Assembly: GCA_025059535.1 (NCBI GenBank)
Contig: JANXCX010000022.1
Location: 1 to 64,000 of the forward strand
DNA length: 64,000 nucleotides
Reading direction: 5' to 3'
Source of the DNA: Bacteroidia bacterium
GTDB taxonomy: Bacteria; Bacteroidota; Bacteroidia; SpSt-205
Positions 18,390 through 49,683 of this stretch are shown piece after piece; positions within the stretch are counted from its first letter, which is position 1, and every line of letters begins with the position of its first letter. The notes beneath the pieces were generated by a model. The model was not told the DNA's origin and did no database searches. It saw nothing but the letters and a program-made list of their open reading frames with translations. A program made the translations under genes and the position numbers.

Positions 18390-18981
18390 AGGTCTGGGCT
18401 AATTCGTGCAGCTGGGCCAAGGCCAACGCTTTCTCCCAGCGGCGCGCGCCGGCAAAATTGGAAATTACTCGCAAGGCATAAAGAGGAATGCCCTGCGCTT
18501 GGGCAAAAATGAAATAGGCCACATTCTCCTGCGTCTCTATTTGCGCCGTGGGAAATTGACGCCGCCAAAAGCGGGCCTCCCGTCGACTACCGCTCACGGT
18601 GTGGAGGGTAAGGCCTTCTACGCAGGGAAAGGGCCATTCTGGGGGTGGAGGGCTGCTTTCGTAGTAGAGCGGAAAACGGTGGCGCAGGGCTTCGGGGGTA
18701 GGCTCAAACCGACGGCCGTACCGCTTGCCTACGTCGCCCCATCGCTCGCGCTGGACATAAACCGGCTTGGACGGCGCCAGACGCCTATCATAACTCCCCG
18801 CAATCCCCAGCACTACTAAGGCGACTGGCTGAGCCTCAGCGGTGACCCAGGCCTGCCATAGCGCCTGTAGCGAAGCCAGCGCCCCTACGCCCGTAACTAA
18901 TAGGCGTAAAGGCGTTATCCCCTGAAGAGTCGTCTCTACCGCCTCCGCCTCTAGCCGGCTAGGTAGCCCTACCCAGACCAA
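18340..18981 (-). CDS. mqnB: Futalosine hydrolase-like nucleosidase
   Basis: This nucleoside-phosphorylase-fold protein of 213 residues has the family blocks 'RLLVTGVGALASL', 'LVVLGIAGSYDRRL', 'IETQENVAYFIFAQAQGIPL' (the acidic residues act in hydrolysis) and 'RVISNFAGARRWEKAL'. The pattern fits MqnB, which releases hypoxanthine from futalosine in the alternative menaquinone pathway, better than MTA/SAH nucleosidase. No other mqn gene is in the window. It overlaps the upstream phosphatase gene by 23 bp, which puts a respiratory-quinone gene under the same transcript as two redox-type PAS phosphatases. Confidence 0.75.
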   Translation of the reverse strand: MVWVGLPSRLEAEAVETTLQGITPLRLLVTGVGALASLQALWQAWVTAEAQPVALVVLGIAGSYDRRLAPSKPVYVQRERWGDVGKRYGRRFEPTPEALRHRFPLYYESSPPPPEWPFPCVEGLTLHTVSGSRREARFWRRQFPTAQIETQENVAYFIFAQAQGIPLYALRVISNFAGARRWEKALALAQLHELAQTYVAPFCRKLLAGSPPT

Positions 18982-20239
18982 TATCCGCTATCTCTAAGGC
19001 TATCACCAGGCGATCGTCAGTGGGTGGCGCGCTCCCCTGCCACTCCGCCACCGAAGCCCGCAGAACCTCCTTCTGCTCGGGCAAAGGGAGGGATTGCACA
19101 GAGGTCAGAATCTCCTGAAGGCGTCGCACGCCTAATCGCTTGCCTTCAGGGTTAAGCTGATTAGCCAGCCCATCGCTGAATAGGTACAGGCGATCACCCG
19201 GCTCAAGCGTGATGGTCCGCTCCACCACCGCCTCACCCAAGTGCTCCCCAAAACTAAAAGGATAGCGTTCTAATATCTCTACCTTGCCCGCTCGGGCAAA
19301 AAAGATTTTATTCTGAAGGGCCACATAGTTCATTTTGAGCCGGGTGCGGTCAATCACGATAATGCTTCCATCTATAGTGATGGGGTGGGCAAGGCGGTGG
19401 CGGAAGAGACGGCCTAGCCGTTCATCCAGCTCCTCTGCCAGCCGCTCAGCCCCCCATACACCTCGATCCAGCACTTGATGGCGAATCTCCTGTAGGAATA
19501 GCGCACTCACCAGCCCGCCCGTAACCCCATGCCCCACACAATCCCCAATAAAGATTAGCAGGCGGCCTTTATCCTCATGGATCCAGTAGAAGTCGCCGCT
19601 CACCATCTGAAGGGGCTCCCACAAAACGAAGTGGGAATAGCCCTGTAGGGCTGAAACGCTGTCTGACTCGCCTAGCGAGAGAAGGGCCTGCTGCAAATCC
19701 CGCGCCATTTCCAGATTCTCCAGTAGGTCCTTCTCCAAAAGGTGCCGCTCGGTACGCAGCTGCTCCTCCAGCGCTTTCTGCCGCGTAATGTCCACGCGGA
19801 TAGAGACATACCGGTACGGCCTGCCCTCCTTATCCAGTAGAGGGCCTACGGTGGCTAACACCCAATAGGCCGAGCCATCCTTACGCCGGTTCTTAATCTC
19901 GCCTTGCCAGATTTTACCCGCTTTTATAGTTTCCCACAGCGCGCGGAAGGTCTCCTTAGGCATGTCGGGATGACGCACAATATTATGGGGTTTGCCTAAA
20001 AGCTCTTCCACCAAGTAGCCCGACACCTCACAAAACTTGGGGTTAGCGTAGGTGATAATGCCTCGGGTATCGGTTTCACTGATGAGCGCAAACCGGTCTA
20101 AAATATTTTTGAGGTCCCGCTGCTCATTCTCAAGGAGGGCCGTCCTCTCCCGAAGTGAGGCTTCTTCGGCCTCGTAGTTAGCTAACTTAATGGCTAAAGT
20201 TTGGAGCAGGGCAGCAATTTCACGCTTTTCGGTTTCCAT
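18959..20239 (-). CDS. Aer-type PAS sensor fused to SpoIIE/RsbU-type PP2C phosphatase (copy 2 of tandem)
   Basis: From ATG 20239 the protein has 426 residues: an N-terminal coiled coil (about 1-50), one PAS domain (about 50-165), a linker helix, and a PPM/SpoIIE domain (about 200-425). The PAS run 'PHNIVRHPDMPKE' with 'KNRRKDGSAYWVLATVGP' closely matches the FAD-binding PAS of aerotaxis receptor Aer, so redox or oxygen sensing is inferred. Phosphatase metal residues are present in 'VSGDFYW', 'FIGDCVGHG', 'YLFSDGLANQ' and 'PTDDRLVIA'. It likely dephosphorylates a Ser on a STAS protein. No transmembrane segment is seen. It is a duplicate of its neighbour at 20269-21534. Confidence 0.9.
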   Translation of the reverse strand: METEKREIAALLQTLAIKLANYEAEEASLRERTALLENEQRDLKNILDRFALISETDTRGIITYANPKFCEVSGYLVEELLGKPHNIVRHPDMPKETFRALWETIKAGKIWQGEIKNRRKDGSAYWVLATVGPLLDKEGRPYRYVSIRVDITRQKALEEQLRTERHLLEKDLLENLEMARDLQQALLSLGESDSVSALQGYSHFVLWEPLQMVSGDFYWIHEDKGRLLIFIGDCVGHGVTGGLVSALFLQEIRHQVLDRGVWGAERLAEELDERLGRLFRHRLAHPITIDGSIIVIDRTRLKMNYVALQNKIFFARAGKVEILERYPFSFGEHLGEAVVERTITLEPGDRLYLFSDGLANQLNPEGKRLGVRRLQEILTSVQSLPLPEQKEVLRASVAEWQGSAPPTDDRLVIALEIADIGLGRAT

Positions 20240-20268
20240 AGACAATGCTCACGCAGTTTTCATGGAAA

Positions 20269-21534
20269 TTAGGGTTTTTGGGCAGGAATTTCCAGCCCAA
20301 CTACGAGGATATCATCAGACTGAGCCAGGTCGCCTTGCCAGGCGCGGAGGGTTTCGGCCAGGGTTTCGTGCTGAGCTGAGAGGGGGAGGTTTTGCAGGTC
20401 GCGCAGGTACTCTAGCCAGGCTCGGTTGCCCCAGCGTTTGCCTTGGGGGCCGCCGACCTGGTCGGCTACGCCGTCCGTGTAGAAATAGAGCCTATCGCCT
20501 GGCTCCAGGTCAACCACTACCTCCGTAGTGGCTTTTCCAAGAAGCTCGCCAAAGCTGAAGGGGTAGCTATCCAGCCGTAGGAGCGTACCCCCGCGGGCTA
20601 GCGCCGCGCGCCCACGCAGGGCCAGGTAGTATAACCGGTAGCGCGGAAGGTCCAAAAGGGCCACGACTCCATCCACAGTGATAGGCATACCCAACCGACG
20701 CCCAAAGAGCTGACCCAACCGCAAGTCTAACTCCTCGGCTAAGCGCTCGGGCGCCGTAAGCCCCTGATCCACTACTAAATGACGCAATTCTTGGATAAAT
20801 AGGGCAGAGATTAGAGCTCCCACTACCCCATGCCCCATGCTATCACCAACAAAGAGGACTAAGCGTCCGCGCGTTTCATGAAGCCAGAAAAAGTCCCCGC
20901 TGACCTCGTGAAGGGGCCGCCAAAAGACAAAATAGGGCACTAACGCCGCTTGGGGATCACTGGGCGGCTTCATAGGCGGCAGCAGAGCTCGCTGAAGGGT
21001 AGCGGCTAAGTGCAGATTTTCCTGAAGCTCAAGGGCCAGCCTATTCCGCTCCTCTCTCAGCTGAGCCTCCAAGGTTTTTAGCCGCGTAATATCTATCCGC
21101 ATAGAGACATAGCGGTAAGGACGGCCCTCCGCATCTAGTAAAGGCCCTACCGTCGCCAGTACCCAATAAGCCGAGCCGTCCTTCCGCCGATTCTTTACCT
21201 CTCCTTGCCAGATTTTGCCAGCCTTGATAGTGTCCCACAATTCCTTGAAAACTTCTTTAGGCATATCGGGATGACGTATGATATTATGCGGCCGCCCTAT
21301 AAGCTCTTCTAAGGAGTAGCCCGAGACTTCGCAGAACTTGGGATTAGCATAGGTAATAACCCCGCGCGTATCCGTCTCGCTAATGATAGCAAATTGGTCC
21401 AGAATGGCCTTGCGATCCCGAAGCTCACGCTCTAAGGCCGCTATCCGCTCCTGAAGCTCCTCGTACTGGGAGAGATTTTGCGAAAGCTGGTGAAGAAGCT
21501 GAATCAGGTCAGAGGTGGTAGCTTGCTGCATCAT
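20269..21534 (-). CDS. Aer-type PAS sensor fused to SpoIIE/RsbU-type PP2C phosphatase (copy 1 of tandem)
   Basis: The 421-residue protein has the same architecture as the next gene: coiled coil, Aer-like PAS ('PHNIIRHPDMPKE', 'KNRRKDGSAYWVLATVGP') and a SpoIIE phosphatase with metal residues in 'VSGDFFWLH', 'FVGDSMGHG', 'YFYTDGVADQ' and 'QSDDILVVG'. The PAS and linker are much more alike between the two copies than the phosphatase surfaces, which suggests one shared signal with two outputs or thresholds. It starts 8 nt after the PurE-like gene and lies 29 nt before the second copy, with no promoter element seen between them. Confidence 0.9.
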   Translation of the reverse strand: MMQQATTSDLIQLLHQLSQNLSQYEELQERIAALERELRDRKAILDQFAIISETDTRGVITYANPKFCEVSGYSLEELIGRPHNIIRHPDMPKEVFKELWDTIKAGKIWQGEVKNRRKDGSAYWVLATVGPLLDAEGRPYRYVSMRIDITRLKTLEAQLREERNRLALELQENLHLAATLQRALLPPMKPPSDPQAALVPYFVFWRPLHEVSGDFFWLHETRGRLVLFVGDSMGHGVVGALISALFIQELRHLVVDQGLTAPERLAEELDLRLGQLFGRRLGMPITVDGVVALLDLPRYRLYYLALRGRAALARGGTLLRLDSYPFSFGELLGKATTEVVVDLEPGDRLYFYTDGVADQVGGPQGKRWGNRAWLEYLRDLQNLPLSAQHETLAETLRAWQGDLAQSDDILVVGLEIPAQKP

Positions 21535-21542
21535 ATCTAACC

Positions 21543-22004
21543 CTACGAGCTAAGCTGCATAGCCCGCTTCTGGAGAAAAGCCGAAAGTAGGTCGGCGTAG
21601 CTAGGATGGCGAGCCGCCAAGGCATGAACGGCTAAAAGGATAGCCCCCTGCGCATCCCACGGACGCGTGAAAGCCACGGGATAACCACGCAAAAGGTCCA
21701 GAAGTGGCTCTAAGGCCGAGGCGGGAAAAGTCTCTGAAGGGCAGGGCGTGATAATCAGGGGGTACGCCAGGCTGCCCGAAGCCACCACGAGCGGTAAAAG
21801 GTAGGCGCTGCGCCCCGCCGCCCACACACAGACGCTTGAGCCTATGCGCTCCAGAAGCTGGCGCAAAGCCCCTAAGCCCATCGCACTGGGCAAATCCTCC
21901 TCCCGAAAGGAAATCCCCATCTGCCGAAGGCTTTCGCGCGCGGTCTCCAACGCCGCACTCTCCGCCGCCGTCTCGTAAATCAGTACCACCTCCGTTCTAC
22001 TCAC
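21543..22004 (-). CDS. PurE-like protein lacking the canonical active-site motifs
   Basis: The 153-residue protein has the size and topology of PurE (N5-CAIR mutase). 'AAGRSAYLLPLVVASGSLAYPLI' region and 'LLRGYPVAFTRPWDAQGAILLAVHALA' region match the PurE core around AGxAAHLPGVVA and the LLS-MP-G-PVA...NAALLA helix. The PurE motifs for substrate binding are absent: the N-terminal GSxSD is 'YETAAESAALE' and SAHR is 'PSAMG'. The GTG start at 22004 lies 4 nt after TAACTTTG. It leads the operon with two PAS/SpoIIE phosphatases, so a binding or sensory role is a possibility, but this is inference. Confidence 0.6.
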   Translation of the reverse strand: MSRTEVVLIYETAAESAALETARESLRQMGISFREEDLPSAMGLGALRQLLERIGSSVCVWAAGRSAYLLPLVVASGSLAYPLIITPCPSETFPASALEPLLDLLRGYPVAFTRPWDAQGAILLAVHALAARHPSYADLLSAFLQKRAMQLSS

Positions 22005-22008
22005 ATAG

Positions 22009-22016
22009 CAAAGTTA
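22009..22016 (-). promoter_or_regulatory. -7 promoter element TAACTTTG for the PurE-like/PAS-phosphatase operon
   Basis: A perfect TAnnTTTG match on the minus strand ending 4 nt before the GTG at 22004. A TTTG lies 22 nt upstream and may be the -33 element. Confidence 0.6.
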
Positions 22017-22059
22017 GCAAAATACCTTTGATTCCCTACAAAGGAGACCAGCCGCTTTT

Positions 22060-22067: not shown

Positions 22068-22074
22068 TGTGGTT

Positions 22075-25000
22075 ATGTACTTAGGCCCTAAAGGTTATAG
22101 GCTTGCGGGCTTTCTTACTTTGGCTTTGGCGCAATCGGGCGGCGTATGGCGCTGGCACCACTACAGCCAGGCGGGACAAGCTTCCCCCACGGTAGGTTGG
22201 TCTCCCAGCTCTAGTCACTCGCCCCGAATCCTGCCCGGAAAGGTAGTAGCACAAGATAACCGCGTCTATATCCTCGGTACTATTGCGCACCAAAACGGAG
22301 GTGATGGCGTAGTGCTACCCAATACGCTGGTATCCCTGACGGGCGTCAATGGTGGCGATACCTCGGCTTACGTAGCCGCCTATGATGTAGACGGAAATTG
22401 GCTATGGGCCATGCACTTCCGCAGCGCCTCTGGCAGCATCACCGTGCGCGGCATAGACCTCGTCGTAGATAGAAATCACCGAGTATATGTCCTTCTGCAT
22501 GCGCGCCGCTCAGGTAGATTAGGAGCACGCTTCTACCGCTCTGGGAGTCAAGCCGATATTACTCTATCGCCCGACGAGACCTATAATTACAACAGCAGCT
22601 TTGTCATCCGCTTTCGGGTAGATGGGGCTAATCCCACCGACTGGGCCGTTCAGCGCTTCGCCTGCGCTAGCCTTCTTCCAAGCGCATGTGACAACAATGC
22701 CTTCCAAGCCAACCTCTTCCACCTCCTCCTTCAGGGGGATAATCTATGGGTCAGCGGTACTGTTGTTACCACCCAATTCCCAGGGGTTAATAATTTCCTC
22801 ACAGCTACACTCACCTCTATTACCGCACCCATTCTCCAGTTACTTTTTAGTTTAGGCAATCCGCTAAATCCCCTTGAGGTTATTCAGGCTACCCTTCTCC
22901 GCCTTGATGTAACCGATCTCCGCCTTACAGGAATTGCCACGATGCGGCGTACTCCTAATTCCTCAGTGCCCTGCTTTGGCCGGATACCTTTCTGGGATAG
23001 AGACCCCAACCCCATAGGCTGGTTCGTAGCTAAGCGCGAGGCGGGTGAAGTAGAATACAGAAAATATATCACCTCTGACGCCAATATCTCTGCTACCACC
23101 TACAATGGACTGCCCCCAAGCCTGCAAATCTTCTTTATAGACCCCCACAACCTCACCTTGATTGATAATTTAGAATTTGCCCAATTTGCGCCTAATTCAA
23201 ACGATCCGCCAGGGTTTTATCATGCAGCAGCGGTTTTCAACTCAGCTAATTCCTCTACGACGCTTTTCTGGGCCACGGTGGACACGGCCGCTTATACTTT
23301 TTCCACGACGCAGGGTAATGTAAGCCTAAGCCAAACCTCCGAGCCGCGCCTTATCCTCACCAGAGCTGAGATAGCAAGGAGCGGCCCCCTTCAGATTCAG
23401 ATTCAGCCGCCCTTAGTCTCTAGACCTGTACGCGGGCTCTACCTCAGCGCCCTAGCCTACGACCCTCTGAGCAGAGGCTGCTTAGTCAGTGGTACCCTAG
23501 AGGGTAGCACCTGGCAGCTAGAGGACCTAAGTAACGGAAGCCTTAGAACCCTGCCAGCCGCGCCTGCCCCTAATGGTGTAGGTACTTTTCTCCTGGGCGT
23601 GCGCCAGCCGCCTTCGGCTCCCTGGCGGCTGGTAGGATATAAGTTTCTCCATGGGGTGGGAAGGGTAGCGCCGCGTCAGCAGGTGCTCTCGGGCGGCCTG
23701 GCTATCATAGGTCATAATAACGCGCGGGCCTATCTCTATGGCTGGGCGCTGGATAGCCTCCTGGTAGAGCCGCGCTGGCCCGAGGGCGATAGCGCGCTTG
23801 TCCGACCCGCCCCCAATCCTACTGACCCGCCCCGCCTCTGGGTGGGCGCCTTAGACCTGTATCGCCTGTTTCCACTGCGTCCATCAGTTCATCACGTCTG
23901 CGTGCCGGATACGGTGCTTACGGGTGAGGATTTTATACTCTATGCCCCTTTGCCGGCTGAGAAAGAGGCTGAGCTGGTGTGGGTGCCTGCAGAGCCTGAG
24001 CGGCGCTTCCGAGCGAAAAATGGCTGGGCCGCCGCCACAGCCGCTCGGCTCACGCACAATCAATTAAGTAACCAACAATATCAATTCATACAACTTTCCT
24101 TAGTCGTTCCTGGGCGCCTGCCGCCGGGAGAGTACTTTCTGGCTCTGCGCGCGCCAGCCCCGATGGGGGACTATTTCGCCGATATCGTAGATACGCTCAA
24201 AATTCGGGTATTAGGCACGACGACGCCGGCCCTTCAGCGGGCTGGCTCCCTACGCTGGCGACGCGCCGTGGTCCTTTTAGCTGGCGCTCCAAGCGACCAT
24301 CCAGCCGCAAGCACAGCCCCGCTCGGCACCGACTTTTACCGCAAAGCCCGCCACTTTGCGGCTATAGAGCGGATCGCCTACCTGCCTTGGAGGGCCGCCG
24401 AGGAGGGTAAAGAGCTCCTCTATCTCTTAGAGCGTACTACCGATCCAGTCTCTGGGGATTTCTACCACCTGTATCGCTTGGATTTTAGTACAGGCCAGAT
24501 TAGGCGCCTGCGGCAGTGGCCGGCTTCCTCCAACCATCCCGACTACCGCGGCCGTAACCTTATTGCGGATCCCGTACGCGGTGAGCTCTGGACCCAAGGG
24601 GAGCGCGTCCTGTGGCGGCTCCATCCCACCGATCCCACACGCGACGAGCCCATCGTGCTCCACACGGGCACAGATCCAGCCAGCTTTTCCCCTACAGGTT
24701 ACCCGCTCCGCCATCCTGAAAGGTGGACTCATGTAGGCCTTCTCAAGTTCATAGTTACAGAAAATGGGGATTTAGTGGGTCTTGTCGGGGTAGTGGGTAC
24801 TCGCATCCGACTGGTGCGTATTGATCCCCTGCGCGACAGCGCACTCTTCGTAGCCGGAGGAGGTACTGCTACCTTATGCCCTGACGACGGTCAAGGCACT
24901 CAGGCGACTTTTACCGTATATTCACTTAGTAACCCGCCCGTAAGTGAGGGGGACACAATTTACTGGTTTGAAAGGGCTACATGTGGTACTCAAACTACCT

Positions 25001-26727
25001 GGTGGCTGCGCCGCGCCTGGCCCAATTCCCCCGACCGCAAAACCTATACGGTTCAAACCCTACAATCCTTTCCTAACAGGCCAGACTACAGGGTTTTAGC
25101 CTTTGGCCGCGTGCCTCGCCGCGGGCTTTACATAGCCACTAGTTTGACGAGCAGTACTCCTCTTTTTTATGGTATCCTCTGGTTTGACCTGGTAGAGCAG
25201 CGTCTAGATACCATCATAGGTTGTCTGGAGACACCCTGCTGCACTTATGAGCTAAGTGACTGGGTGAACGAATTTGCAATCCCTTCTTCTGGCGCCGTCC
25301 TGCGCAGTGGGGTGCTAGTATATAGTTCCACCTCTTCCTTTATTAAGGCGGCGTTGCCCGTTCAGCTAGAAAGCCAGTCTGACACGCTTGTGGCCGAAGC
25401 CCATATACTCCAGGCCTCTGCGGGAAGTTTCCAGCATGATACCCTTTTTCTCTCTCCGGCCGATTCCATGTGGCTGCGCGTGCATACCTGCGCCACGGGT
25501 CCAACCCAAGGTAAGCCTTTCTGGTACGGCCGCCTGCGCTTCCCTAATCTGACTCTCCGTCTAGTCTTTCCCTCTCAGGTATGCGAGGGGATGGTCTTTA
25601 GCGGCTTCGGCGCGCTTCAAGGTGGCCCTCTACCCCAAGAGGGTTCGTGTGAAATAGGAGGTGAGCTTATCCGCAGGATTTTTGCACAAATCCTCAGGCA
25701 GCATAATAGGGTCCGACCGCTATTAGGAGGGCTCATCCTACCCCATTACCTCTACTGGCTGAAAGCATGGGCGGCTGGACCGGAAGTTATCACGGTCGGT
25801 GGCTCCCTTGGGGCTAAGTGGGGCTGGCTTGTACCGAATGCGCCGGCTTCGGCTGAGATTTCTATCCGCCGCGGGTATCGCCTGCGTCTGCGCACCGCCC
25901 TCCAAGGCCCATGGGCCGCTCACCCGGGTTCGCTGCGCTGGATGCACCCTCATCCCTTCTTCCACCGCCTCACCTTAGGCCGCTACAATCAAGCCTCTCC
26001 CCCTTCAATTCCTCCTGACTCCCTCTGGCGCCTTCCACGCTACCCCAGCGACTCTCTAATACAGCTATGGGGACTATTACAACAACCACCGCCCCAAGAT
26101 TGCAGCTGGCCCAATTTCTTCTGCGATCCCATTTGGACTAACCTGGCGCGCGTAGAGGTGTATGAGACCAATGGTCAGCGGGTGGATAGCGCCTATGCGC
26201 TTATAGATACCCTTGGCCGCCTCTATCTTTACCGCGCGCCGGTACTTGATATCTCAGACTTTCTTGGAAATGGAGATACCCTCCACTTCTGCCAGTGCGA
26301 TCCTCATACCCCAAAGTATTTCGTCCTCCGCACGCCTAATCACCTTCCTCTTTACAGCCGCCAGCTTACCTTCCCTGCCCGGGGCGTGGGGGAGGCAGAT
26401 GTGCTAGACCTCACTGACCCCAGTTTCTTAGAAGGCCTACCTGGTCAGCACTATGCCCTCTTGGGAGATACTACAGGGCCTAGCCTCCAGATGCGCGCGG
26501 GCGCCTGGGCGGGTAACTGCGCCGACCTCTTTCAGAACTTCCTCCCCGGACCCCACCACGATAGCGGCGTAATCAATGCCGCCGATCTGGAGTTCCTCCT
26601 GCTGCGCAATGGCGTCACCACAGGCTTCTCGTGGGCTGACCTGGATGCTGATGGCCAGGTAACCGCTAACGATGCCGTTATTCTTCTAGAGAACCAGAAC
26701 CTCCTGCGCCAGAGCTACGGACCTTAG
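22075..26727 (+). CDS. Giant secreted beta-propeller-like protein with dockerin-like C-terminus
   Basis: The protein has 1550 residues from ATG 22075 (an in-frame GTG lies at 22069). The N-terminus has a signal peptide ('GFLTLALAQSGG'). The first third holds SBBP-like strands ('VYILGTIAHQNGGDGVV', 'AYVAAYDVDGNWLWAMHF'), suggesting a beta propeller. The middle has an adhesin-like segment ('VCVPDTVLTGEDFILYAPL') and a second propeller-like stretch. The C-terminus carries two Ca-binding-loop motifs, 'HDSGVINAADLEFLL' and 'DLDADGQVTANDAVILL', resembling a type I dockerin. No T9SS sorting domain is recognisable, so the surface or export route is unclear. Cys residues are scattered through the middle region. 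Confidence 0.75.
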   Translation: MYLGPKGYRLAGFLTLALAQSGGVWRWHHYSQAGQASPTVGWSPSSSHSPRILPGKVVAQDNRVYILGTIAHQNGGDGVVLPNTLVSLTGVNGGDTSAYVAAYDVDGNWLWAMHFRSASGSITVRGIDLVVDRNHRVYVLLHARRSGRLGARFYRSGSQADITLSPDETYNYNSSFVIRFRVDGANPTDWAVQRFACASLLPSACDNNAFQANLFHLLLQGDNLWVSGTVVTTQFPGVNNFLTATLTSITAPILQLLFSLGNPLNPLEVIQATLLRLDVTDLRLTGIATMRRTPNSSVPCFGRIPFWDRDPNPIGWFVAKREAGEVEYRKYITSDANISATTYNGLPPSLQIFFIDPHNLTLIDNLEFAQFAPNSNDPPGFYHAAAVFNSANSSTTLFWATVDTAAYTFSTTQGNVSLSQTSEPRLILTRAEIARSGPLQIQIQPPLVSRPVRGLYLSALAYDPLSRGCLVSGTLEGSTWQLEDLSNGSLRTLPAAPAPNGVGTFLLGVRQPPSAPWRLVGYKFLHGVGRVAPRQQVLSGGLAIIGHNNARAYLYGWALDSLLVEPRWPEGDSALVRPAPNPTDPPRLWVGALDLYRLFPLRPSVHHVCVPDTVLTGEDFILYAPLPAEKEAELVWVPAEPERRFRAKNGWAAATAARLTHNQLSNQQYQFIQLSLVVPGRLPPGEYFLALRAPAPMGDYFADIVDTLKIRVLGTTTPALQRAGSLRWRRAVVLLAGAPSDHPAASTAPLGTDFYRKARHFAAIERIAYLPWRAAEEGKELLYLLERTTDPVSGDFYHLYRLDFSTGQIRRLRQWPASSNHPDYRGRNLIADPVRGELWTQGERVLWRLHPTDPTRDEPIVLHTGTDPASFSPTGYPLRHPERWTHVGLLKFIVTENGDLVGLVGVVGTRIRLVRIDPLRDSALFVAGGGTATLCPDDGQGTQATFTVYSLSNPPVSEGDTIYWFERATCGTQTTWWLRRAWPNSPDRKTYTVQTLQSFPNRPDYRVLAFGRVPRRGLYIATSLTSSTPLFYGILWFDLVEQRLDTIIGCLETPCCTYELSDWVNEFAIPSSGAVLRSGVLVYSSTSSFIKAALPVQLESQSDTLVAEAHILQASAGSFQHDTLFLSPADSMWLRVHTCATGPTQGKPFWYGRLRFPNLTLRLVFPSQVCEGMVFSGFGALQGGPLPQEGSCEIGGELIRRIFAQILRQHNRVRPLLGGLILPHYLYWLKAWAAGPEVITVGGSLGAKWGWLVPNAPASAEISIRRGYRLRLRTALQGPWAAHPGSLRWMHPHPFFHRLTLGRYNQASPPSIPPDSLWRLPRYPSDSLIQLWGLLQQPPPQDCSWPNFFCDPIWTNLARVEVYETNGQRVDSAYALIDTLGRLYLYRAPVLDISDFLGNGDTLHFCQCDPHTPKYFVLRTPNHLPLYSRQLTFPARGVGEADVLDLTDPSFLEGLPGQHYALLGDTTGPSLQMRAGAWAGNCADLFQNFLPGPHHDSGVINAADLEFLLLRNGVTTGFSWADLDADGQVTANDAVILLENQNLLRQSYGP

Positions 26728-30602: not shown

Positions 30603-31670
30603 AAGGCGCCGAGTAAGGCTCGGGTGAAAGTCCAAACGCAGCGAAATGAGGTGGGAGTAGAGGCCTTGACTGAAGCCGGTAAAGTTGGCTAAGGCATAGT
30701 CTAGGCCGAAGTGCCAAATCCGAACTCCCACGCCCGTGGTAGGATAAAAGGTAAAAGTCCTTTGGCCGCTGGCCGTAACGGCCCGTTGGAAGTTAGTGAG
30801 GCCAAGGCGGAGGGCGGCCCATTGCTTGTAGCTAACCTCTAAGCCTACGCTTAGGTCGGCGCTCAGCGGCCGCCCTACCAGCAAGGCATTGCGCGGGCCA
30901 TCGGTAAAAACTACCACATCCGCCATAGGCCAAAGGGAAAGCGGCCGATGAGCCAGAAGCTTATACGCCACGCCCACTCGTAGGCTGGGACGCGTCCATT
31001 CTATGGAGTTTTGGGGGATAGCATTCCCCGTAAGAAGGAAAGCGGTTTCAAAGGCTTCCGTATTGAAGGTCCAAGCGTTGAAGGTAGAGGTGCCATCGTA
31101 TAACACTAAGCCTGCGCGCCAAGGGCCGCGCCGGTAGAATAGGCCGGCATCTAACCCAAACCCCCATGCCGTAGCAAAAGGGCCTAAGAGGCGATGGATA
31201 ACTTTTACCGAACCGCCTATCGCCAGCGCAGTATCCCGCAGCCACTGGGCATACGAGAGGTAAGCCGCCATGTCGGCTACGGAAAAGCGCGTAATTCGGC
31301 CAAAATCGTAGCTGATACCATCGTAAAAGCGGAGCGTATTGGGGATGTCATCTATGCCTAGGCGGATAAAACTGAGGGCAAGGCGCCGGTTTTCTGGCAG
31401 GCTCAGCGCTAAGGTGCCATAATCGTATTTAGCCACGCTGGCAAAATATTCACTGTGCATGAGCACGAGCTGGGGATAGTTGGGCGTTTCTACCAGTGCG
31501 GCAGGATTCCAGTAGGCGGCCGTAGCATCCACGGCCGCCGCTACCTGAGCGTTGCCTAGGCCAGCGGCCCGCGCGCCTACCCCAATCTTGAGAAATTCAT
31601 TACTGTACTTCACCTGCGCAGTTAGAAGTCCAGTGGCTATCAGCCCGTATAGCGCACGCCAATAAGGCAT
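30582..31670 (-). CDS. PorV/PorQ-family outer-membrane barrel
   Basis: The protein has 362 residues, with signal peptide 'ALYGLIATGLLTAQ' and then the family opening 'YSNEFLKIGVGARAAGLGNA' and 'ATAAYWNPAALVE', characteristic of the PorV/PorQ group of FadL-like barrels. PorV shuttles T9SS cargo to the sortase PorU; PorQ serves the attachment complex. Which role applies cannot be told from one gene. It is the last gene of the long minus-strand chain and overlaps the TPR/SpoIIE gene by 31 bp. Confidence 0.82.
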   Translation of the reverse strand: MPYWRALYGLIATGLLTAQVKYSNEFLKIGVGARAAGLGNAQVAAAVDATAAYWNPAALVETPNYPQLVLMHSEYFASVAKYDYGTLALSLPENRRLALSFIRLGIDDIPNTLRFYDGISYDFGRITRFSVADMAAYLSYAQWLRDTALAIGGSVKVIHRLLGPFATAWGFGLDAGLFYRRGPWRAGLVLYDGTSTFNAWTFNTEAFETAFLLTGNAIPQNSIEWTRPSLRVGVAYKLLAHRPLSLWPMADVVVFTDGPRNALLVGRPLSADLSVGLEVSYKQWAALRLGLTNFQRAVTASGQRTFTFYPTTGVGVRIWHFGLDYALANFTGFSQGLYSHLISLRLDFHPSLTRRLLPAKGG

Positions 31671-34441
31671 ATATCATCCATCTGTTCAATATTACCCCGC
31701 CAGGCCAGAATGGTTTCTTCAATTATCTGCCTTTGTTGCTGGGGCGGGTACCCATGCACCCGGGCAAGGATTTCTCGCAGGCGTTTGGGTAGGAATTTTG
31801 ACCGGTGCAGAGTTCCATCGGGCCTTTTTTCAAATCCCTGCTGATCCACTATGCCATCGGAGAAAAGGTAAAAGCTTAGGTTAGGACGCAGGGGTATGAG
31901 GTGGGACTCAAACGCACTATGCTGCAGAAGCTGATCTCCGCCGATACTTCGGCGCGAGCCTTTGATTTCTATGAATTCTCCTTCCGGCGTAAAGAGGAAG
32001 AGAGGCCGGCGCGCGCCAGCAAAGTGGAGCTCACGCCGCTGAAGGTCAATATAACAGAGCGCAATGTCCATCCCATCTTTGACTTGTCCCTCACTAAGGG
32101 TTTGGTGTAAGGTATAGCGCAGCTCCTCATCCAGCCGTTCTAAGAGCAGAGAGGGGTTTTTAGGTCCCTCTTCTTGAGCCAGCCGATTGAGAAGGGTAGT
32201 ACCTATCATGCTCATAAAGGCGCCCGGCACGCCATGGCCCGTGCAATCCGCCACCGCCAATAGACTCTCGGTAGGAGAGAGAGGATAGAAGTAGTAAAAG
32301 TCGCCACTCACTACATCTTTCGGTAGATAGAGCACGAATGATTCGGGAAAGCGGTTGTAAAAAGGCGTAAGGTCAGGTAAAATAGCCATCTGAATACGCC
32401 GCGCATACAGGATGCTTTCTTCTATATCTTGCTTGGCTTTGGCCAGGGCTTCGTTCTTTTCTTCTAAGAGATTCTTTTGCTCTTCTATGAGCCGATTGCG
32501 CTCAGCCAACTGGGCATTAATCTCCCGCTCGCGCCTGTTGGCTCGGTAAAGTACCACTAGGACTATGGCGGCAGCCCCAATAAGGAGAAAAGCGCTGAGG
32601 ACGATTATCCAGGTAACTTGGCGCGCTTTTTCGGCTCGTAGGCGCTCGGCCTCTATGCGGCGCTCTTGCATATCTTTCTCCTTCTGGTGCAAGTAATTCA
32701 GCTCCATGCTGGTAAGCGCGCGTACATTCTCTTCGTTAGATACACGCTGAAGCGCATGGATAAGTGGCTGAATGTAACGGTAGCCTTGCGCATGGGCGCG
32801 CGTTTCGCCATAAAGAATAATCAGCTTGTCGTACACTTCGGCTAGCTCACTGTAAGCCTCTAAGGGTTCTAAAATCTCACGGGCTTCTTCATACTGGGCG
32901 ATAGCCATTTTGGGTTGCTTTTTGCGCCAGAATAGATCGCCTTTATTCATGAGTACGTGGGCTAAGGCAAAGTCGGATCGGCTGCGTTTAGCGTAGCGCA
33001 AGGCTATCTCTAAGTGGTGGGCCGCCGAATCCAACTGAGCCTGCTCCATTTCTAGCCGAGCCAGGTTTATGCTAGCTTCAGCCGCGGAACCCCAATCTTC
33101 GCTTTCCTCGGCCAATATGCGCGATTCACGGAAGAGATTGCGGGCTGCCTCTATATTCCCTTTTTTAGCCTGAGCTACCGCTAAATTCGTAGCGACCTTG
33201 AAGGGAAAGGTAGGATTGGGGGCGAGATTAGCGTAGTCGGCTGCATAGCTAAAAAGCTCCAAGGCTTTGTCCCATTCCTCTTGATTGTAGTAGATTTCGC
33301 CGATGGCGTTGAGCACCATGGGAAGGAGGGTAGAGTCGTTGCGCAGCTCACACAAGCGCCGCGCCCTAAGAAGCCGCTCCATAGCCTGCGGGTAAAGAGC
33401 CTGACGCGTGTAGAGATTACCCAAGTTCAAAAGCACCTGCACGGCTAGAGTGGTATCACCGTGGGCTTCAGCCAGTTCTAAGGCCTTTTGGTAGAGGTCC
33501 TTAGCTCGGGCCAGACTGCCAGTCTGATAGAAGCCCTCGGCAGCTACCCAATTGTAAAGACGCGCCCGACTGATGGGGTCCTGAATCTCCCTTTCGGCAG
33601 CCTGCAGCAGGGTATCGGCTTGGGGTAGCTTGGCGCGGGCGGCTTCACACAGGGCAAAGCCATAGGCATCCCAGAGCCACGCCTGAATCCCACTCTGACG
33701 CGCCAGCGCCAAAATGCGCGCCTGTACGGCCAGCGCCTCCTCCACCCGCCCCTCCGCCAAATGCAAAAGGAATAGCTCCTTAAGCGCATTCCGCAGGTAC
33801 TCCGCTTCCTTGGCTTTTTCGGCCTGGGTGATAGCCTGCATAAGCTGCTCCTCGGCCAGCTCGTAGAGCCGCTGCTTGCGGTAAAGGCCCCCCATGTTGA
33901 TACGCGTCATGATCTCTAAAGGAGAATTACGAATGCTTTGAGCTAAAGTCAAAGAACGCTCATAAAATCCCTGCGCCGCCAAAAGGTCTCCCATGCTTTC
34001 GGCCAGAGCTGCTTGAAGATTGAGCATCTGTACTAAAATGCCTGTATCGGCTGGAATAGCTCGGAAAAGGGTATCAGCCCGTCCAAGGAGTCGTGTAGCC
34101 TGCTCGTAAGAGGCCGCATAGTACAGAGCAGAGGCCTGGTAATATAGGCTCAGAAGCTCCCGCCGCTTATCCCCCAGCCGGCGTGCCAAAGGTTCCGCCC
34201 GCCGCGCATAATCCAGGGCCCGCCACTCGTTGATATTTAGGTAAAGTTTAGACAGGGTAATATAGGTAGCAAGGGCTACGGAGTCGGGTATGCGCTGGCG
34301 GCGTAAAAGCTGCTCCAAAGAGTCTATCTGCTGGAGTACCTGCGCCTCCAGCCTGCCCACTCCCAAAAAGGTTAGTACGCCTATCCACACCCACCGCACT
34401 TCCTCTGGCGAAGGTAAGGATTTTAGGAGGTTGTAGGCCAA
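31640..34441 (-). CDS. TPR-repeat, membrane-anchored SpoIIE/RsbU-type PP2C phosphatase
   Basis: This 933-residue protein has a signal peptide ('WVWIGVLTFLGVGRLEAQ'), about ten tetratricopeptide repeats (roughly residues 35-580), one transmembrane helix ('WIIVLSAFLLIGAAAIVLVV', about 630), a coiled coil, and a cytoplasmic SpoIIE domain. Metal residues lie in 'VSGDFYYFYP', 'AVADCTGHGVPGA', 'YLFSDGIVDQ' and 'QMDDICLIG'. The TPR part would face the periplasm and sense a protein ligand, while the phosphatase acts inside, probably on a STAS protein. The architecture is common in Bacteroidota. It overlaps maf by 19 bp and the PorV-like gene by 31 bp. Confidence 0.92.
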   Translation of the reverse strand: MAYNLLKSLPSPEEVRWVWIGVLTFLGVGRLEAQVLQQIDSLEQLLRRQRIPDSVALATYITLSKLYLNINEWRALDYARRAEPLARRLGDKRRELLSLYYQASALYYAASYEQATRLLGRADTLFRAIPADTGILVQMLNLQAALAESMGDLLAAQGFYERSLTLAQSIRNSPLEIMTRINMGGLYRKQRLYELAEEQLMQAITQAEKAKEAEYLRNALKELFLLHLAEGRVEEALAVQARILALARQSGIQAWLWDAYGFALCEAARAKLPQADTLLQAAEREIQDPISRARLYNWVAAEGFYQTGSLARAKDLYQKALELAEAHGDTTLAVQVLLNLGNLYTRQALYPQAMERLLRARRLCELRNDSTLLPMVLNAIGEIYYNQEEWDKALELFSYAADYANLAPNPTFPFKVATNLAVAQAKKGNIEAARNLFRESRILAEESEDWGSAAEASINLARLEMEQAQLDSAAHHLEIALRYAKRSRSDFALAHVLMNKGDLFWRKKQPKMAIAQYEEAREILEPLEAYSELAEVYDKLIILYGETRAHAQGYRYIQPLIHALQRVSNEENVRALTSMELNYLHQKEKDMQERRIEAERLRAEKARQVTWIIVLSAFLLIGAAAIVLVVLYRANRREREINAQLAERNRLIEEQKNLLEEKNEALAKAKQDIEESILYARRIQMAILPDLTPFYNRFPESFVLYLPKDVVSGDFYYFYPLSPTESLLAVADCTGHGVPGAFMSMIGTTLLNRLAQEEGPKNPSLLLERLDEELRYTLHQTLSEGQVKDGMDIALCYIDLQRRELHFAGARRPLFLFTPEGEFIEIKGSRRSIGGDQLLQHSAFESHLIPLRPNLSFYLFSDGIVDQQGFEKRPDGTLHRSKFLPKRLREILARVHGYPPQQQRQIIEETILAWRGNIEQMDDICLIGVRYTG

Positions 34442-37816: not shown

Positions 37817-38309
37817 CGCTTAAGCTATTTGCGTAATAGCACCAAACTAATTGACCCTCGTGAAAAAGAAAGGAGGCATGTAGGAGAAGGGGGTCGGCTT
37901 TCGGCCGTTCATTAAGCAGGCCTTGGCGCACCAGCTTTACGGCTTCCCACAGATCGCGCCAATTCAAATCCCAAAATCCTCTCAAACGCCGCACCTTAAA
38001 TAGCCGATAGAGCCGCTGCTGAGAGTCCGCAATATGCACCGCTCCCGGATAAAACCGCTGAAAGAATAAACGCCCCTCCTCCAGCGTATTTGGATGTACA
38101 AAGACCAGAAAAGGCCGAATAGAGTCCTGCCAACTCTCCAAAAAGGCCCGAATATCCTTTACAAGACCTTTGCAGTACATGCAGCCTAGGTGCCGCAAAA
38201 ATTGTAGCCATACATACGAGTGACTACGCAGGAGGGTGGGTAGATCCTGGGCAGGTAGATTTTCACCCTCCAAGGGATAGGTAAACCGCCAGAACTCTAT
38301 TTCACTCAT
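37764..38309 (-). CDS. AhpC/TSA-like thioredoxin-fold protein
   Basis: ATG 38309 overlaps the upstream phosphatase stop as ATGA, giving 181 residues. The fold is marked by 'YVWLQFLRHLGCMYCKGLV', a CxxC-like pair in the position of the peroxidatic Cys of the AhpC/TSA_2 (SelL-like) family, then 'IRPFLVFVHPNTLEEGRLFF' and 'HIADSQQRLYRLFKVRRL'. Thiol peroxidase or reductase activity is inferred. The context next to a Usp and a sensor phosphatase suggests oxidative-stress defence. Confidence 0.75.
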   Translation of the reverse strand: MSEIEFWRFTYPLEGENLPAQDLPTLLRSHSYVWLQFLRHLGCMYCKGLVKDIRAFLESWQDSIRPFLVFVHPNTLEEGRLFFQRFYPGAVHIADSQQRLYRLFKVRRLRGFWDLNWRDLWEAVKLVRQGLLNERPKADPLLLHASFLFHEGQLVWCYYANSLSDVPDWRKGFSGARATRP

Positions 38310-39643
38310 AAAATCCGGCACGCTAAGAGGCTCATGTCGTCCTGAAGCTCTTTAGTTTGACGGTATTCATCTATAATCTTGCGCACCCGGGCCAGCAGTT
38401 CATCCGATGACACCGAACCCAAGTTAGATAAGTAGCGCTCTAGCCGCTCTAAGCCTAAATCTTCTCCTGTCGGACTGGGCTGCTCTATCAGACCATCCGT
38501 ATAGGCAAAGAGGATATCGCCGGGTTGAAGGCCTGTGAGATTCTGCGGTGAGGTGGCCTCTAACCGATGCTCGTGCCCAGGGATATGAATTCCTATAGGG
38601 GTAAGGTTAGCCGGCAAAGGGATTAGGCCGCGCTGCGCACTAATTAGAAAGGCAGGTGGGTGGCCTGCATTATAGTATTCTAATTGGACTTCGCCGTTCT
38701 CCTCTAGCGTAAGTTTGGCCAAGAACAGGGTTACAAAGCCTGAGTCCTCCTCCCTCCCATAAATTTGGAGGAGGCGACGATGAAGCTGGGCAAGCATCTT
38801 AGGAAGAGATAGTCCCAGCTCAGCTAAGGTCCGAATGTGCCCCTGCAAATTAGACATTACTAAAGCGGCCGAAATCCCTTTACCCGATACATCCCCCATA
38901 TAAAAGAGCACTTCCCTATCCGAGACCCGAATAAAATCAAATAGGTCACCTCCCACACCCTTATAGGCCACATGAAACGTAGCGATATCTAGACGGGGAT
39001 GCACCCCTGGCGTCGTAGCTGAGAGGATGCGGCGCTGAATGCGTGAGGCCAGCCTAATCTCTTGCTCATAGGCCTGCTGCTGAAGACGCAAAATCTCGGC
39101 CTGGCGCTGCTGCTCCTGAAAAAAGGCATTTTCCAAATACACCGTAATGATGCTACCGATGATCTCCAGATAGATAAGATCGCTTTTCTCCTCTTCCTCC
39201 GTTTCAGCAAAAGATCCTAAAAGCCACCAAGCCTGGGGCTCCACAATGCGCACGCGCGCCGAGGGCCCCACAAAGCGACCTAAAGGCATTATAATCTCCA
39301 CTCCCATGTGAGCCAGAAAGCTGTCTGGCTCAGGCACACTCGTGATAGTATACTTCAAACACTCGCGAATAGCATCCTGAGATATGCTAGGAAAATTGTG
39401 AAAATAGGCCAAACGGGGCCGCCGATTCGGCGTAAAAGTATGAATGTAGGCCAGCTTTTCCACCCCGAAACAGCTCCTCAGAATGGAAGCTACTGAGATA
39501 AGGAGAGGTGTATCGCCAGTTTTAGGCGCTAAAAGACGGACTACCTCTTGGACAGCTTCTAGCTCGCTACGGCGCAGTTCAATGCGCTGTAGGAGCTGCT
39601 GAGCCGTAAGACCGCCCGAAGCCTCAAAAGGTAGCTCCGTCAT
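38306..39643 (-). CDS. GAF-like sensor fused to SpoIIE/RsbU-type PP2C phosphatase
   Basis: The protein has 445 residues. The N-terminal 190 residues have GAF-like pattern ('LLISVASILRSCFGVEKLAY', 'MPLGRFVGPSARVR') followed by a coiled coil ('LRLQQQAYEQEIRLASRIQR'). The C-terminal SpoIIE domain keeps 'VGGDLFDFIRV', 'YMGDVSGKGISAALV', 'YTDGLIEQ' and 'LQDDMSLLACRIL'. This subtype, with GDVSGKG, is the RsbU/P-like class. It lies 25 nt downstream of the permease gene with no -7 element seen between, and its stop overlaps the next start. Confidence 0.9.
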   Translation of the reverse strand: MTELPFEASGGLTAQQLLQRIELRRSELEAVQEVVRLLAPKTGDTPLLISVASILRSCFGVEKLAYIHTFTPNRRPRLAYFHNFPSISQDAIRECLKYTITSVPEPDSFLAHMGVEIIMPLGRFVGPSARVRIVEPQAWWLLGSFAETEEEEKSDLIYLEIIGSIITVYLENAFFQEQQRQAEILRLQQQAYEQEIRLASRIQRRILSATTPGVHPRLDIATFHVAYKGVGGDLFDFIRVSDREVLFYMGDVSGKGISAALVMSNLQGHIRTLAELGLSLPKMLAQLHRRLLQIYGREEDSGFVTLFLAKLTLEENGEVQLEYYNAGHPPAFLISAQRGLIPLPANLTPIGIHIPGHEHRLEATSPQNLTGLQPGDILFAYTDGLIEQPSPTGEDLGLERLERYLSNLGSVSSDELLARVRKIIDEYRQTKELQDDMSLLACRIL

Positions 39644-44775: not shown

Positions 44776-45755
44776 CCGAAAAGCGAGGACTGAACCCCCC
44801 GAAGAGGCCGGCCTAAATGGACATAGGCCCGCGGCAGAGCCCTACGGCCGCGCGGCGTGCGCTCCAGAAAGCCTTCCATAATCAAGTAGGGCTCATATAC
44901 CTCTTCCAGCGTCTCGCTCTCCTCGCCTACGGCTACGGCTAAAGTCTGCAGGCCTGTAGGTCCCCCCCCAAACCGATCTATGAGGATAAGCAGAAGCTTT
45001 TTATCAATCTCCTCTAGGCCAGCGGGGTCAATCTGAAGGTGCGTAAGCACCTTTTCGGCAAATTCGCCCGTAATTACCTTGACGCCTTCCACTTGGGCAA
45101 AATCGCGTATGCGGCGCAGAAGGCGGTTAGCTGTACGCGGGGTGCCGCGGCTACGGCGCGCAATCGCCTCCGCCCCCGCCTCGGTCAGATTAATCCCTAA
45201 AATTCGGCTGGAGCGTAAAGCTATCTGTTGCAGCTCTTCTTGGGTGTAGTACTCCACGTGAATTGTAATCCCAAACCGCGCTACGAGGGGCGCTGTGAGA
45301 AGACCTAAGCGGGTAGTGGCTCCCACGAGGGTGAAAGGGCGTAGCGGCAGCTGGAGGGTGCGTGCATGCGGACCACTATCCAGTACGATATCCAACCGAT
45401 AGTCCTCCATCGCCGTATAGAGATACTCTTCCACCGAGGGATGTAGGCGGTGAATCTCGTCAATGAAAAGCACATCCCCATGGTCAAGCTGGGTAAGAAG
45501 ACCGGCCAAATCCGCTGGGCGCTGGAGGGCTGGCCCGCTCGCCGTAAAGAGGCGCCGACCCATCTCTTGGGCGATGATATTAGCCAGAGTAGTTTTACCT
45601 AGTCCAGGAGGGCCGTAAAAAAGCGTATGATCTAAAGGCTCGCCCCTCTGCCGCGCCGCCTCCAAAAAAACCCTAAGATTGCGTAAGAACGGCCGATCCC
45701 CAATAAACTCCTCTAGCCGCCGAGGTCGAAGCGCTTTCTCCTCGGGATCTAACAT
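44772..45755 (-). CDS. ruvB: Holliday junction branch-migration ATPase RuvB
   Basis: RuvB, the AAA+ motor of the RuvABC complex, has 327 residues here. It shows 'LRPRRLEEFIGDRPFLRNL', Walker A 'LFYGPPGLGKTTLANIIAQE', Walker B 'DVLFIDEIHRLHPSVEEYLY', sensor 'TLVGATTRLGLL', arginine finger region 'ARFGITIHVEYY' and the C-terminal winged helix 'FLERTPRGRRALPRAYVHLG'. It overlaps the RsbW-like gene upstream by 7 bp, so a DNA-repair gene is translated from the same transcript as the partner-switching pair. Confidence 0.96.
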   Translation of the reverse strand: MLDPEEKALRPRRLEEFIGDRPFLRNLRVFLEAARQRGEPLDHTLFYGPPGLGKTTLANIIAQEMGRRLFTASGPALQRPADLAGLLTQLDHGDVLFIDEIHRLHPSVEEYLYTAMEDYRLDIVLDSGPHARTLQLPLRPFTLVGATTRLGLLTAPLVARFGITIHVEYYTQEELQQIALRSSRILGINLTEAGAEAIARRSRGTPRTANRLLRRIRDFAQVEGVKVITGEFAEKVLTHLQIDPAGLEEIDKKLLLILIDRFGGGPTGLQTLAVAVGEESETLEEVYEPYLIMEGFLERTPRGRRALPRAYVHLGRPLRGVQSSLFG

Positions 45756-46183
45756 CCCTCTGAGGCCGAGCTCAACCGCTTGACCAGATGGTAGAGGGAG
45801 CTACCGCCTTTGCGCCGGCGAACCCGTATCTCATCTATAAAGCGCCGCAATAGGTAAATTCCAAAGCCCCCCGGCCGAGTCGTACCAGCTCGTAAAAGAC
45901 GCGGCTCCTGCGGATAACTATGGATATCATACGGCGGCGCAGGGTCATACAAATACGCATGGACTTCCCCTCCTTGCACCGAAAGCTCTAAACGCAGTTC
46001 CTTCTGGGCATCCTCCTTGTTACCGTGTAAAATGGAATTTGCACAAAGCTCCTCAATAGCCACTGTTATCTGGTTGAGCTCTAAAGAATTTGAAACTACT
46101 TTGCTTAAATGCGTACGGACAAAATGTCTAATAATAGGAAGATTTTCAGCTGTAGCGCCAAACTGGAGAGCCATTTTAGGCAT
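45749..46183 (-). CDS. RsbW/SpoIIAB-like anti-sigma-type HATPase (serine kinase)
   Basis: This GHKL ATPase of 144 residues has the anti-sigma-factor kinase layout: N-box 'ITVAIEELCANSILHGN' (Glu and Asn bind ATP-Mg), G1-like 'YDPAPPYDIH' and G2 'RPGGFGIYLLRRFIDEIRVR'. In partner switching it phosphorylates a Ser on a STAS antagonist and holds a target when the antagonist is phosphorylated. G1 has Ala where Gly is usual (D-x-A-x-P-Y-D), so kinase activity needs care. It overlaps the STAS gene upstream by 8 bp. Confidence 0.82.
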   Translation of the reverse strand: MPKMALQFGATAENLPIIRHFVRTHLSKVVSNSLELNQITVAIEELCANSILHGNKEDAQKELRLELSVQGGEVHAYLYDPAPPYDIHSYPQEPRLLRAGTTRPGGFGIYLLRRFIDEIRVRRRKGGSSLYHLVKRLSSASEGC

Positions 46184-46496
46184 GATTAATCGGAATAAGT
46201 TTGGTAAGCCCTAAAAGATCCAGAATATTATAAACCTCAGGTTGTACTTGGGTAAGTTCCAGCATTATACCTTTAGGACTGAAATTATCTACGCACATAA
46301 GCAGAATCCCAGCACCTGCACTGGAGAGGTAAGTAAGCCTTTGACAGGAGAGAATAATTTTCTTCAAGTTAGGGGTCTGTTGGACAAGTTGGGTAAGCCT
46401 TTCATAGAGCTTAGGGGCCGTCAGAGCATCCAACTCCCCGTCTAAGCTTACCTGCACCTGCCCCGCTGCCGATACGGGTTGTACTTCTATCTGCAT
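46176..46496 (-). CDS. RsbV/SpoIIAA-like STAS anti-sigma antagonist
   Basis: The 106-residue STAS protein opens 'QVQVSLDGELDALTAPKLYE' as RsbV-type antagonists do. The phosphorylatable serine lies in 'YLSSAGAGILLMCV' (canonical DSSGLG; the Asp is Leu here). Kinase RsbW-like phosphorylates it and SpoIIE phosphatases would reverse this, giving a switch. The ATG is 5 nt after TATTTTTG, and TTG lies 20 nt upstream of that element as a -33 box. It is the first gene of the transcript that continues through the RsbW-like kinase to ruvB and queG. Confidence 0.85.
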   Translation of the reverse strand: MQIEVQPVSAAGQVQVSLDGELDALTAPKLYERLTQLVQQTPNLKKIILSCQRLTYLSSAGAGILLMCVDNFSPKGIMLELTQVQPEVYNILDLLGLTKLIPINHA

Positions 46497-48657: not shown

Positions 48658-49683
48658 ATGGACCTTGCGGTGTTAGAGGAAGAGGTGCGGAATTATGATT
48701 TAAGTACGGCGGAAGGGCGAGCTTCTTTTCGTCAGCGCTTCTTACGGAAGGGGGGTATTTTGGATAGGCTTTTGTCGGAGCTACCTACTCTCCCGCTGGA
48801 GGAGCGCCGCCTGCGCGGACAGCGGCTGAATGCCCTGCGTCAGCTAGCCCAGCAGCGCTTAGCTCAGGCTGAATCCCATTCCTCCTCTCCCTCTCTCTCC
48901 CCTTTAGCTTTTGCGGATCTGACCTTTCCCCTTGTAGGTCTTCAGCCCGGTGCGCGACACCCCCTCAGCCTGATAGAGCAGCGCGTCCTAACGCTATTTC
49001 AACGGCTGGGCTATACCTTAGCCGATGGTCCTGAAATAGAAGATGACTGGCATAACTTTACGGCGCTCAACTTTGAACCCGACCACCCGGCGCGCGACAT
49101 GCAGGATACGTTCTTTATAGACCCCAGCCAGGGTAAGCTCCTTCGCACTCATACCTCCACGGTGCAGATTCGCGTGATGGAGCGACAGGCCCCACCTTTG
49201 CGGATTTTAGCCCCGGGGCGCGTGTACCGACATGAAACAATCTCCGCCCGTGCCCATGTGTATTTTCATCAGATTGAAGGGCTCTGTGTGGATGAGGGCA
49301 TAAGTGCTGCTGATCTACGGGCTACCTTAGAGTATTTTCTAACTCAATTTTTTGGAAGCGGTACGCGCTTACGCTGGCGCGCCTCCTACTTCCCCTTTAC
49401 CGAAATGAGCGCCGAAGTAGATATAGCCTGCCGCATTTGCCAAGGGAAAGGCTGCCCTGTGTGTAAATTCACTGGCTGGGTGGAAGTTTTAGGCTGTGGC
49501 ATGGTAGACCCTAACGTGCTAGCCGCTTGTGGCATTGATCCCGACCGCTACACAGGCTTTGCATTTGGTCTAGGGGTAGAACGGCTGGCGCAGCTTTTCT
49601 TCCAGATACCTGATCTGCGTCTTTTTAGCGAAAATAATTACCGGTTCCTTCAGAGTTTTGCCACCTATGCCCATCTCGCCTGA
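48658..49683 (+). CDS. pheS: Phenylalanine-tRNA ligase alpha subunit
   Basis: PheS pairs with PheT to charge tRNA-Phe. From ATG 48658 (promoter 6 nt upstream) it has 341 residues with an N-terminal coiled coil and class II core: motif 2 'RILAPGRVYRHETISARA', 'FTALNFEPDHPARDMQDTFF', and motif 3 'GFAFGLGVERLAQLFFQI'. A CRIC...CPVC four-Cys cluster before 'VLGCGMVDPNVL' is a known feature of some PheS forms and may bind zinc. pheT is not adjacent. The frame opens earlier at 48610, which is rejected. Confidence 0.94.
   Translation: MDLAVLEEEVRNYDLSTAEGRASFRQRFLRKGGILDRLLSELPTLPLEERRLRGQRLNALRQLAQQRLAQAESHSSSPSLSPLAFADLTFPLVGLQPGARHPLSLIEQRVLTLFQRLGYTLADGPEIEDDWHNFTALNFEPDHPARDMQDTFFIDPSQGKLLRTHTSTVQIRVMERQAPPLRILAPGRVYRHETISARAHVYFHQIEGLCVDEGISAADLRATLEYFLTQFFGSGTRLRWRASYFPFTEMSAEVDIACRICQGKGCPVCKFTGWVEVLGCGMVDPNVLAACGIDPDRYTGFAFGLGVERLAQLFFQIPDLRLFSENNYRFLQSFATYAHLA

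Follow-up and report, generated by a model that had tools for sequence, protein, structure and literature searches.

The window, i.e., the whole 64-kb stretch of DNA that was analysed, carries on its reverse strand a predicted operon led by a gene for a PurE-like protein (Table 1). An 8 bp gap separates this gene from the first of two consecutive PAS-SpoIIE phosphatase genes, which are followed by a futalosine-hydrolase-like gene and a pabC-like gene. A sequence-only reading of this DNA had placed the PurE-like gene at the head of two sensor phosphatases, and this position was confirmed; the last two operon members were absent from that reading. The futalosine-hydrolase-like protein has ETQE at the position where its family usually has ETME, and may be a diverged MqnB.

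Table 1. Features of the PurE-like operon (positions in the window).
Feature	Coordinates	Strand	Basis
PurE-like paralog, catalytic motifs lost, first gene of the operon (153 aa, GTG start)	21543..22004	-	PF00731, ortholog alignment, PurE-fold model
PAS-SpoIIE phosphatase 1, 421 aa	20269..21534	-	PF08447, PF07228
PAS-SpoIIE phosphatase 2, 428 aa	18959..20245	-	PF08447, PF07228
Futalosine-hydrolase-like (MqnB-like) protein, 213 aa	18340..18981	-	PF01048; TIGR03664 68 bits, below cut-off 124.7
Class IV aminotransferase, closest to aminodeoxychorismate lyase PabC, 280 aa	17547..18389	-	PF01063 153 bits; TIGR03461 125 bits, below cut-off 176.85
Bacteroidota -7 promoter element TAACTTTG	22009..22016	-	starts 12 nt before the GTG start codon

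All 11 PurE-like orthologs have the -7 element TAnnTTTG, 12–13 nt ahead of the start codon. In Flavobacterium this element covers positions -12 to -5 counted from the transcription start (PMC6847099), and transcription of the PurE-like gene is hence predicted to start at its start codon, giving a leaderless message. None of the four downstream operon genes in the window is preceded by a -7 motif, and the presence of the motif on the first gene only fits a single transcription unit led by the PurE-like gene. On a broader scale, TAnnTTTG at offset 12 accounted for 24 of 68 strict motifs in the loci of eight relatives (L026-L033), vs 4 of 89 in other Bacteroidia loci. This suggests that leaderless messages are widespread in the genus of the window genome, in contrast to Flavobacterium johnsoniae, where 87% have leaders of more than 10 nt (PMC6847099).

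The PurE-like protein matches the AIR carboxylase family AIRC (PF00731) over residues 6-147 (E 2e-7), and its score of 31.1 bits lies just above the curated cut-off of 30 bits. The same family was matched independently by each of the 11 orthologs, with E up to 0.01, and the alignment gave an MSR-type start at a position common to the window protein and its relatives. The PurE equivalog model TIGR01162 scored 29.6 bits for the window protein, under its cut-off of 149.6. Judged on its sequence, the product is a relative of class I PurE. The structural model agrees with this assignment. AlphaFold2, run without templates on single chains with an alignment of 11 sequences, gave a model with a pLDDT of 80 and a pTM of 0.76, and the best 50 PDB matches to this model were all PurE, with a TM of 0.68-0.76 normalised to the query. 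As a control, the canonical PurE of the same genome modelled in the same way gave a pLDDT of 79 and a TM of 0.79-0.87. Both share the fold, and the lower TM of the paralog reflects either genuine divergence or a model of lower certainty. A PurE fold is thus supported by the modelling, as the sequence-only reading had proposed from the size and core of the protein.

That reading had also noted the loss of substrate motifs, and the comparison of motif columns between 31 canonical PurEs and the 11 PurE-like orthologs bore this out and extended it. No variation occurs in SxSD, SAHR or the HLPG loop among the 31 canonical PurEs. The substrate motifs SxSD, SAHR and GGAAHLPG are missing from the window protein: S, D, S, A, H and R of the first two, together with H, P and G of the HLPG loop, are absent from it and from 10 or more of the 11 orthologs. 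The catalytic His, present in all canonical sequences of the comparison, is found in 1/11 orthologs, there within a different LPxxP context; the S and the D of SxSD are each kept in 1/11, and the Arg of SAHR in 0/11. Class I and class II PurE universally carry this His, and enzymes mutated in it are inactive (PMC9376930). Many residues that are invariant in the canonical PurE core are also lost. New in the PurE-like family are a conserved helix motif at the C-terminus, RHPSYxDLLxAF, and the segment AFTRPxDAQ. The alignment of orthologs holds 26 invariant columns, P39, L70, P89, F112, T113, R132, H133, S135, Y136 and D138 being invariant in the family.

The search for a canonical purE elsewhere in the genome was positive. 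It lies on another contig (G000:C13:98235-98678, 214.6 bits), and purK was also found (G000:C25, 322.6 bits). Hence, the window gene is a second copy; a role of the paralog as a substitute for a missing PurK was rejected, purK being present. One canonical PurE occurs in each of the 11 genomes carrying the PurE-like gene, on a different contig or far from it. Within the genus, 9 of the 10 other genomes contain an ortholog of the PurE-like gene (54-63% identity), and G011, from a second genus of the same family, has one as well (37-38% identity). In the tenth genome of the genus (G001), an 81%-complete assembly, neither PurE copy was found. Nine of the relatives are Bacteroidia metagenome assemblies, and from the isolate series we read their origin as probably hot springs. 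No viral relatives of the protein were found. The median pS of the PurE-like gene was 0.79 vs a median pN of 0.30. Its dN/dS was about 0.12 (13 pairs with computable dS) vs 0.06 for canonical purE; the former value is only approximate, since synonymous sites are saturated. These substitution patterns indicate that the gene is under purifying selection and evolves about twice as fast as purE.

Then, the neighbourhoods of the PurE-like gene were compared in the 11 genomes. It adjoins a PAS-SpoIIE gene, in the same direction, in the window genome (G000) and in G003, G005, G007 and G011, i.e., in two genera, so that the pair is not confined to the window genome. Both genes are present but apart in G002, G004, G009 and G010, so that adjacency holds in 5/9 genomes with both. 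In G002 and G010 the gene downstream of the PurE-like gene is convergent, and the latter therefore appears to be a single-gene unit there. It precedes an enoyl-CoA-hydratase-like gene in G004, heads the mqnB/pabC genes without a phosphatase in G009, and precedes mqnB/pabC in G008; in G006 the contig ends after it. No close PAS-SpoIIE ortholog was found in G006 (92% complete) or G008 (83% complete), which both keep the PurE-like gene. In G002, G004 and G010, the PAS-SpoIIE genes adjoin the mqnB-like gene instead. A head-to-head ftsX-uppP-truB-ribF cluster, present in 9/9 relatives of the genus, is a more constant neighbour than the phosphatases; it is absent beside the PurE-like gene in the window genome and in G011. 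In the window, a 1552-aa frame (22069-26727) in which no Pfam domain was found stands head-to-head with the PurE-like gene in place of this cluster, and the rightward TACCTTTG motif found at 22023-22030 may have been left over from a former divergent promoter. Given adjacency in two genera and separation in four genomes, the arrangement with the phosphatases probably dates far back in the family, but it can be dispensed with.

The possible origin of the paralog was addressed by a search with the family profile, which recovered four less degenerate PurE copies in Bacteroidia, two of them in one family (G545 and G432) and the others in G458 and in G012, the last from the same order as the window genome. 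These four intermediates retain the catalytic His, while the Ser of SAHR is replaced by E or D and the Arg by K or H; H133 and Y136 are common to all of them and to all PurE-like orthologs. At the level of loci, half-degenerate copies were located at L075:6313-6840, L076:6523-7041, L078:5941-6465, L046:1423-1941 and L082:6307-6816; the catalytic His is kept in four of these five, and the S and R of SAHR are lost. From their sequences, it is possible that they are evolutionary intermediates. The copy in G012 (L046) is the sole AIRC protein found in a 77%-complete assembly of the same order that contains purK. Hence, it may not be a second copy: it may be the only PurE of that genome, or the assembly may lack the canonical one. 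Other Bacteroidota genomes gave second AIRC matches of 50-65 bits in frames of 240-320 aa, which were set aside for their LarB-like size.

In a tree with class II PurE as the outgroup (the letters of PDB entry 3rg8), the PurE-like family and the intermediates formed one clade with a support of 97/99.8. A degenerate copy from G059, too long-branched to place, was left out of this last tree; an earlier tree that contained it and lacked class II gave the joint clade a support of 90/73. Alignment of profiles with hhalign pointed in the same direction, the PurE-like family matching the intermediates with E 4e-13, class I with 1e-9 and class II with 3e-4. Since the stem branch of the PurE-like family is very long (5.5-7.3 changes per site), the details of this placement are uncertain and the point of origin could reflect long-branch attraction. 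An origin from class II PurE had been suggested by an AGRS stretch. It was rejected, the joint clade with class II being disfavoured (AU p 0.038) and the profile similarity lower; from the tree and the profile comparison, the AGRS stretch is probably convergent. The joining of the PurE-like family to half-degenerate paralogs of three other Bacteroidia families suggests that the decay was stepwise and is old. No neighbourhood common to the intermediates and the window operon was found, except for truB about 1.3 kb away in one of them.

The PurE-fold model, the lost catalytic residues, the purifying selection and the presence of canonical purE and purK elsewhere support the reuse of the PurE fold. 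We thus consider it fairly probable that the product is a class I PurE paralog that has been neofunctionalised and acts as a stand-alone protein, without CAIR synthesis. According to this scenario, a purE copy would have been duplicated early in this part of Bacteroidia and would first have lost the contacts to phosphate and ribose (the Ser and the Arg of SAHR), with the catalytic His still in place. Later, in the hot-spring family, the His would have gone too, together with the SxSD loop, the Gly-rich HLPG loop and some 25 residues at the C-terminus, the tail being shorter by this length than in the intermediate paralogs, and the RHPSYxDLLxAF helix motif and the AFTRPxDAQ segment would have been gained. 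The present protein would still oligomerise like PurE and would not make CAIR; it may bind a different small molecule or another protein through its remodelled pocket and new C-terminal face. Co-transcription with the PAS-SpoIIE, mqnB-like and pabC-like genes would be secondary and not needed for conservation of the PurE-like gene. In our ranking, such a stand-alone non-catalytic or ligand-binding oligomer stands ahead of a new enzyme, followed by a subunit of PurE and then by a partner of the phosphatases.

A new enzyme, with R132, H133, Y136 and D138 or the AFTRPxDAQ segment as its active site, is rather unlikely but has a precedent in LarB, in which a PurE-type domain carboxylates a different nucleotide (PMC11796402). 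The invariance of R132, H133, S135, Y136, D138 and T113, found only in the family or in the family and the intermediates, would fit this reading, as would the metabolic mqnB-like and pabC-like genes beside it in several genomes. However, the conserved residues map to the C-terminal helix and not to the two substrate-holding loops of PurE; no motif for a metal or a cofactor was recognised, and the gene neighbours vary. The paralog could instead be a non-catalytic subunit of mixed octamers with canonical PurE, regulating or stabilising CAIR synthesis. PurE is indeed a homo-octamer with closely spaced sites (PMC11451730), and Methanobacteria have a divergent second domain, PurE', on which complementation depends and for which a structural role was suggested (PMC3261824). 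Such a role is nevertheless unlikely: canonical PurE co-occurs in all 11 genomes, but purE is a housekeeping gene and its co-occurrence says little, the two genes are far apart or on different contigs, and the paralog is heavily changed, having lost the C-terminal tail and many of the invariant core residues.

The sequence-only reading had favoured a purine-enzyme fold reused as a ligand-binding or scaffold partner of a signalling phosphatase. Of this idea, the reuse of the fold was retained, and a dedicated partnership was not supported, the genes being apart in four of the nine genomes with both and the PurE-like gene seemingly monocistronic in two (G002, G010). A dedicated partner of this kind would bind a metabolite or a protein and tune the dephosphorylation of a STAS anti-anti-sigma factor by the PAS-SpoIIE phosphatases. 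The co-directional pairs in five genomes of two genera, the promoter motif found in the window operon only at the PurE-like gene, and the STAS/HATPase pair and three further SpoIIE proteins within the window would be consistent with it. Yet an obligate partner is expected to be adjacent, and this was the case in only 5/9 genomes; moreover, G006 and G008 keep the gene with no close PAS-SpoIIE ortholog found, and the phosphatases stay with the mqnB-like gene in G002, G004 and G010. We therefore regard a dedicated phosphatase partner as quite improbable. As for a decaying purE pseudogene, the lost catalytic motifs and a dN about twice that of canonical purE would be expected, but all 11 orthologs keep an open frame despite a synonymous divergence that is saturated, 26 columns are invariant and the promoter element keeps a fixed position in 11/11; this reading was rejected at the level of the family and has hardly any probability left.

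The 64-kb window also contains five SpoIIE phosphatases and one STAS/HATPase_c_2 pair (18959-21534, 31640-34441, 38306-39643, 49658-50941 and 45749-46496), which can be read as a rich partner-switching system.

Compared with class I PurE, from which it appears to derive, the favoured neofunctionalised paralog shares the fold, the length, the AIRC Pfam family and the order of secondary structures, and differs by the loss of SxSD, SAHR and GGAAHLPG with the universal catalytic His, by a shorter C-terminus with the new RHPSYxDLLxAF motif, and by the separate purE and purK of its genome. With class II PurE or AIR carboxylase (Treponema denticola PurE, the AIRc domain of PAICS), it has in common AGRS where class I has AGGAA, but it lacks SAHK and the SN of AGRSNGL and its profile similarity is far below that to class I. 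The half-degenerate Bacteroidia copies (L075, L076, L078 and L046), of which no description was found in the open-access literature searched, belong to the same clade and share H133, Y136, usually HPSYxDL, and the loss of the S and R of SAHR; unlike the PurE-like family, they keep the catalytic His, mostly the HLPG loop and the full C-terminus, in different neighbourhoods. LarB, involved in the synthesis of the nickel-pincer cofactor, likewise reuses the PurE fold for another reaction. It is a protein of about 250 aa with an extra N-terminal domain and a PurE-like C-terminal domain, and is set apart by this description from the 153-aa protein and its single AIRC domain. The PurE' domain of Methanobacteria is also a divergent PurE copy with a possibly structural role (PMC3261824), but it forms a fusion with PurE and is required for AIR carboxylation in a pathway that has no purK, whereas the PurE-like gene stands separately in a genome with purK. 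The open-access text searched, in which "PurE" is a difficult search term, gave no report of a bacterial stand-alone degenerate PurE or PurE pseudoenzyme; only the archaeal PurE' and PurE-like cases were retrieved.

It is conceivable, if doubtful, that the PurE-fold protein of these hot-spring Bacteroidia works outside purine synthesis, sensing a ligand or regulating as an oligomer, perhaps with input into a PAS-SpoIIE/STAS partner switch, and that the intermediates in related families trace the path from enzyme to non-enzyme. Few single-step enzymes of purine synthesis are as conserved as PurE. The sequence and conservation of the PurE-like protein suggest that it has probably taken on a new job. 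The normal enzyme, the half-degenerate copies and the fully converted copy would then form a stepwise series for testing how a catalytic fold is emptied and refitted.
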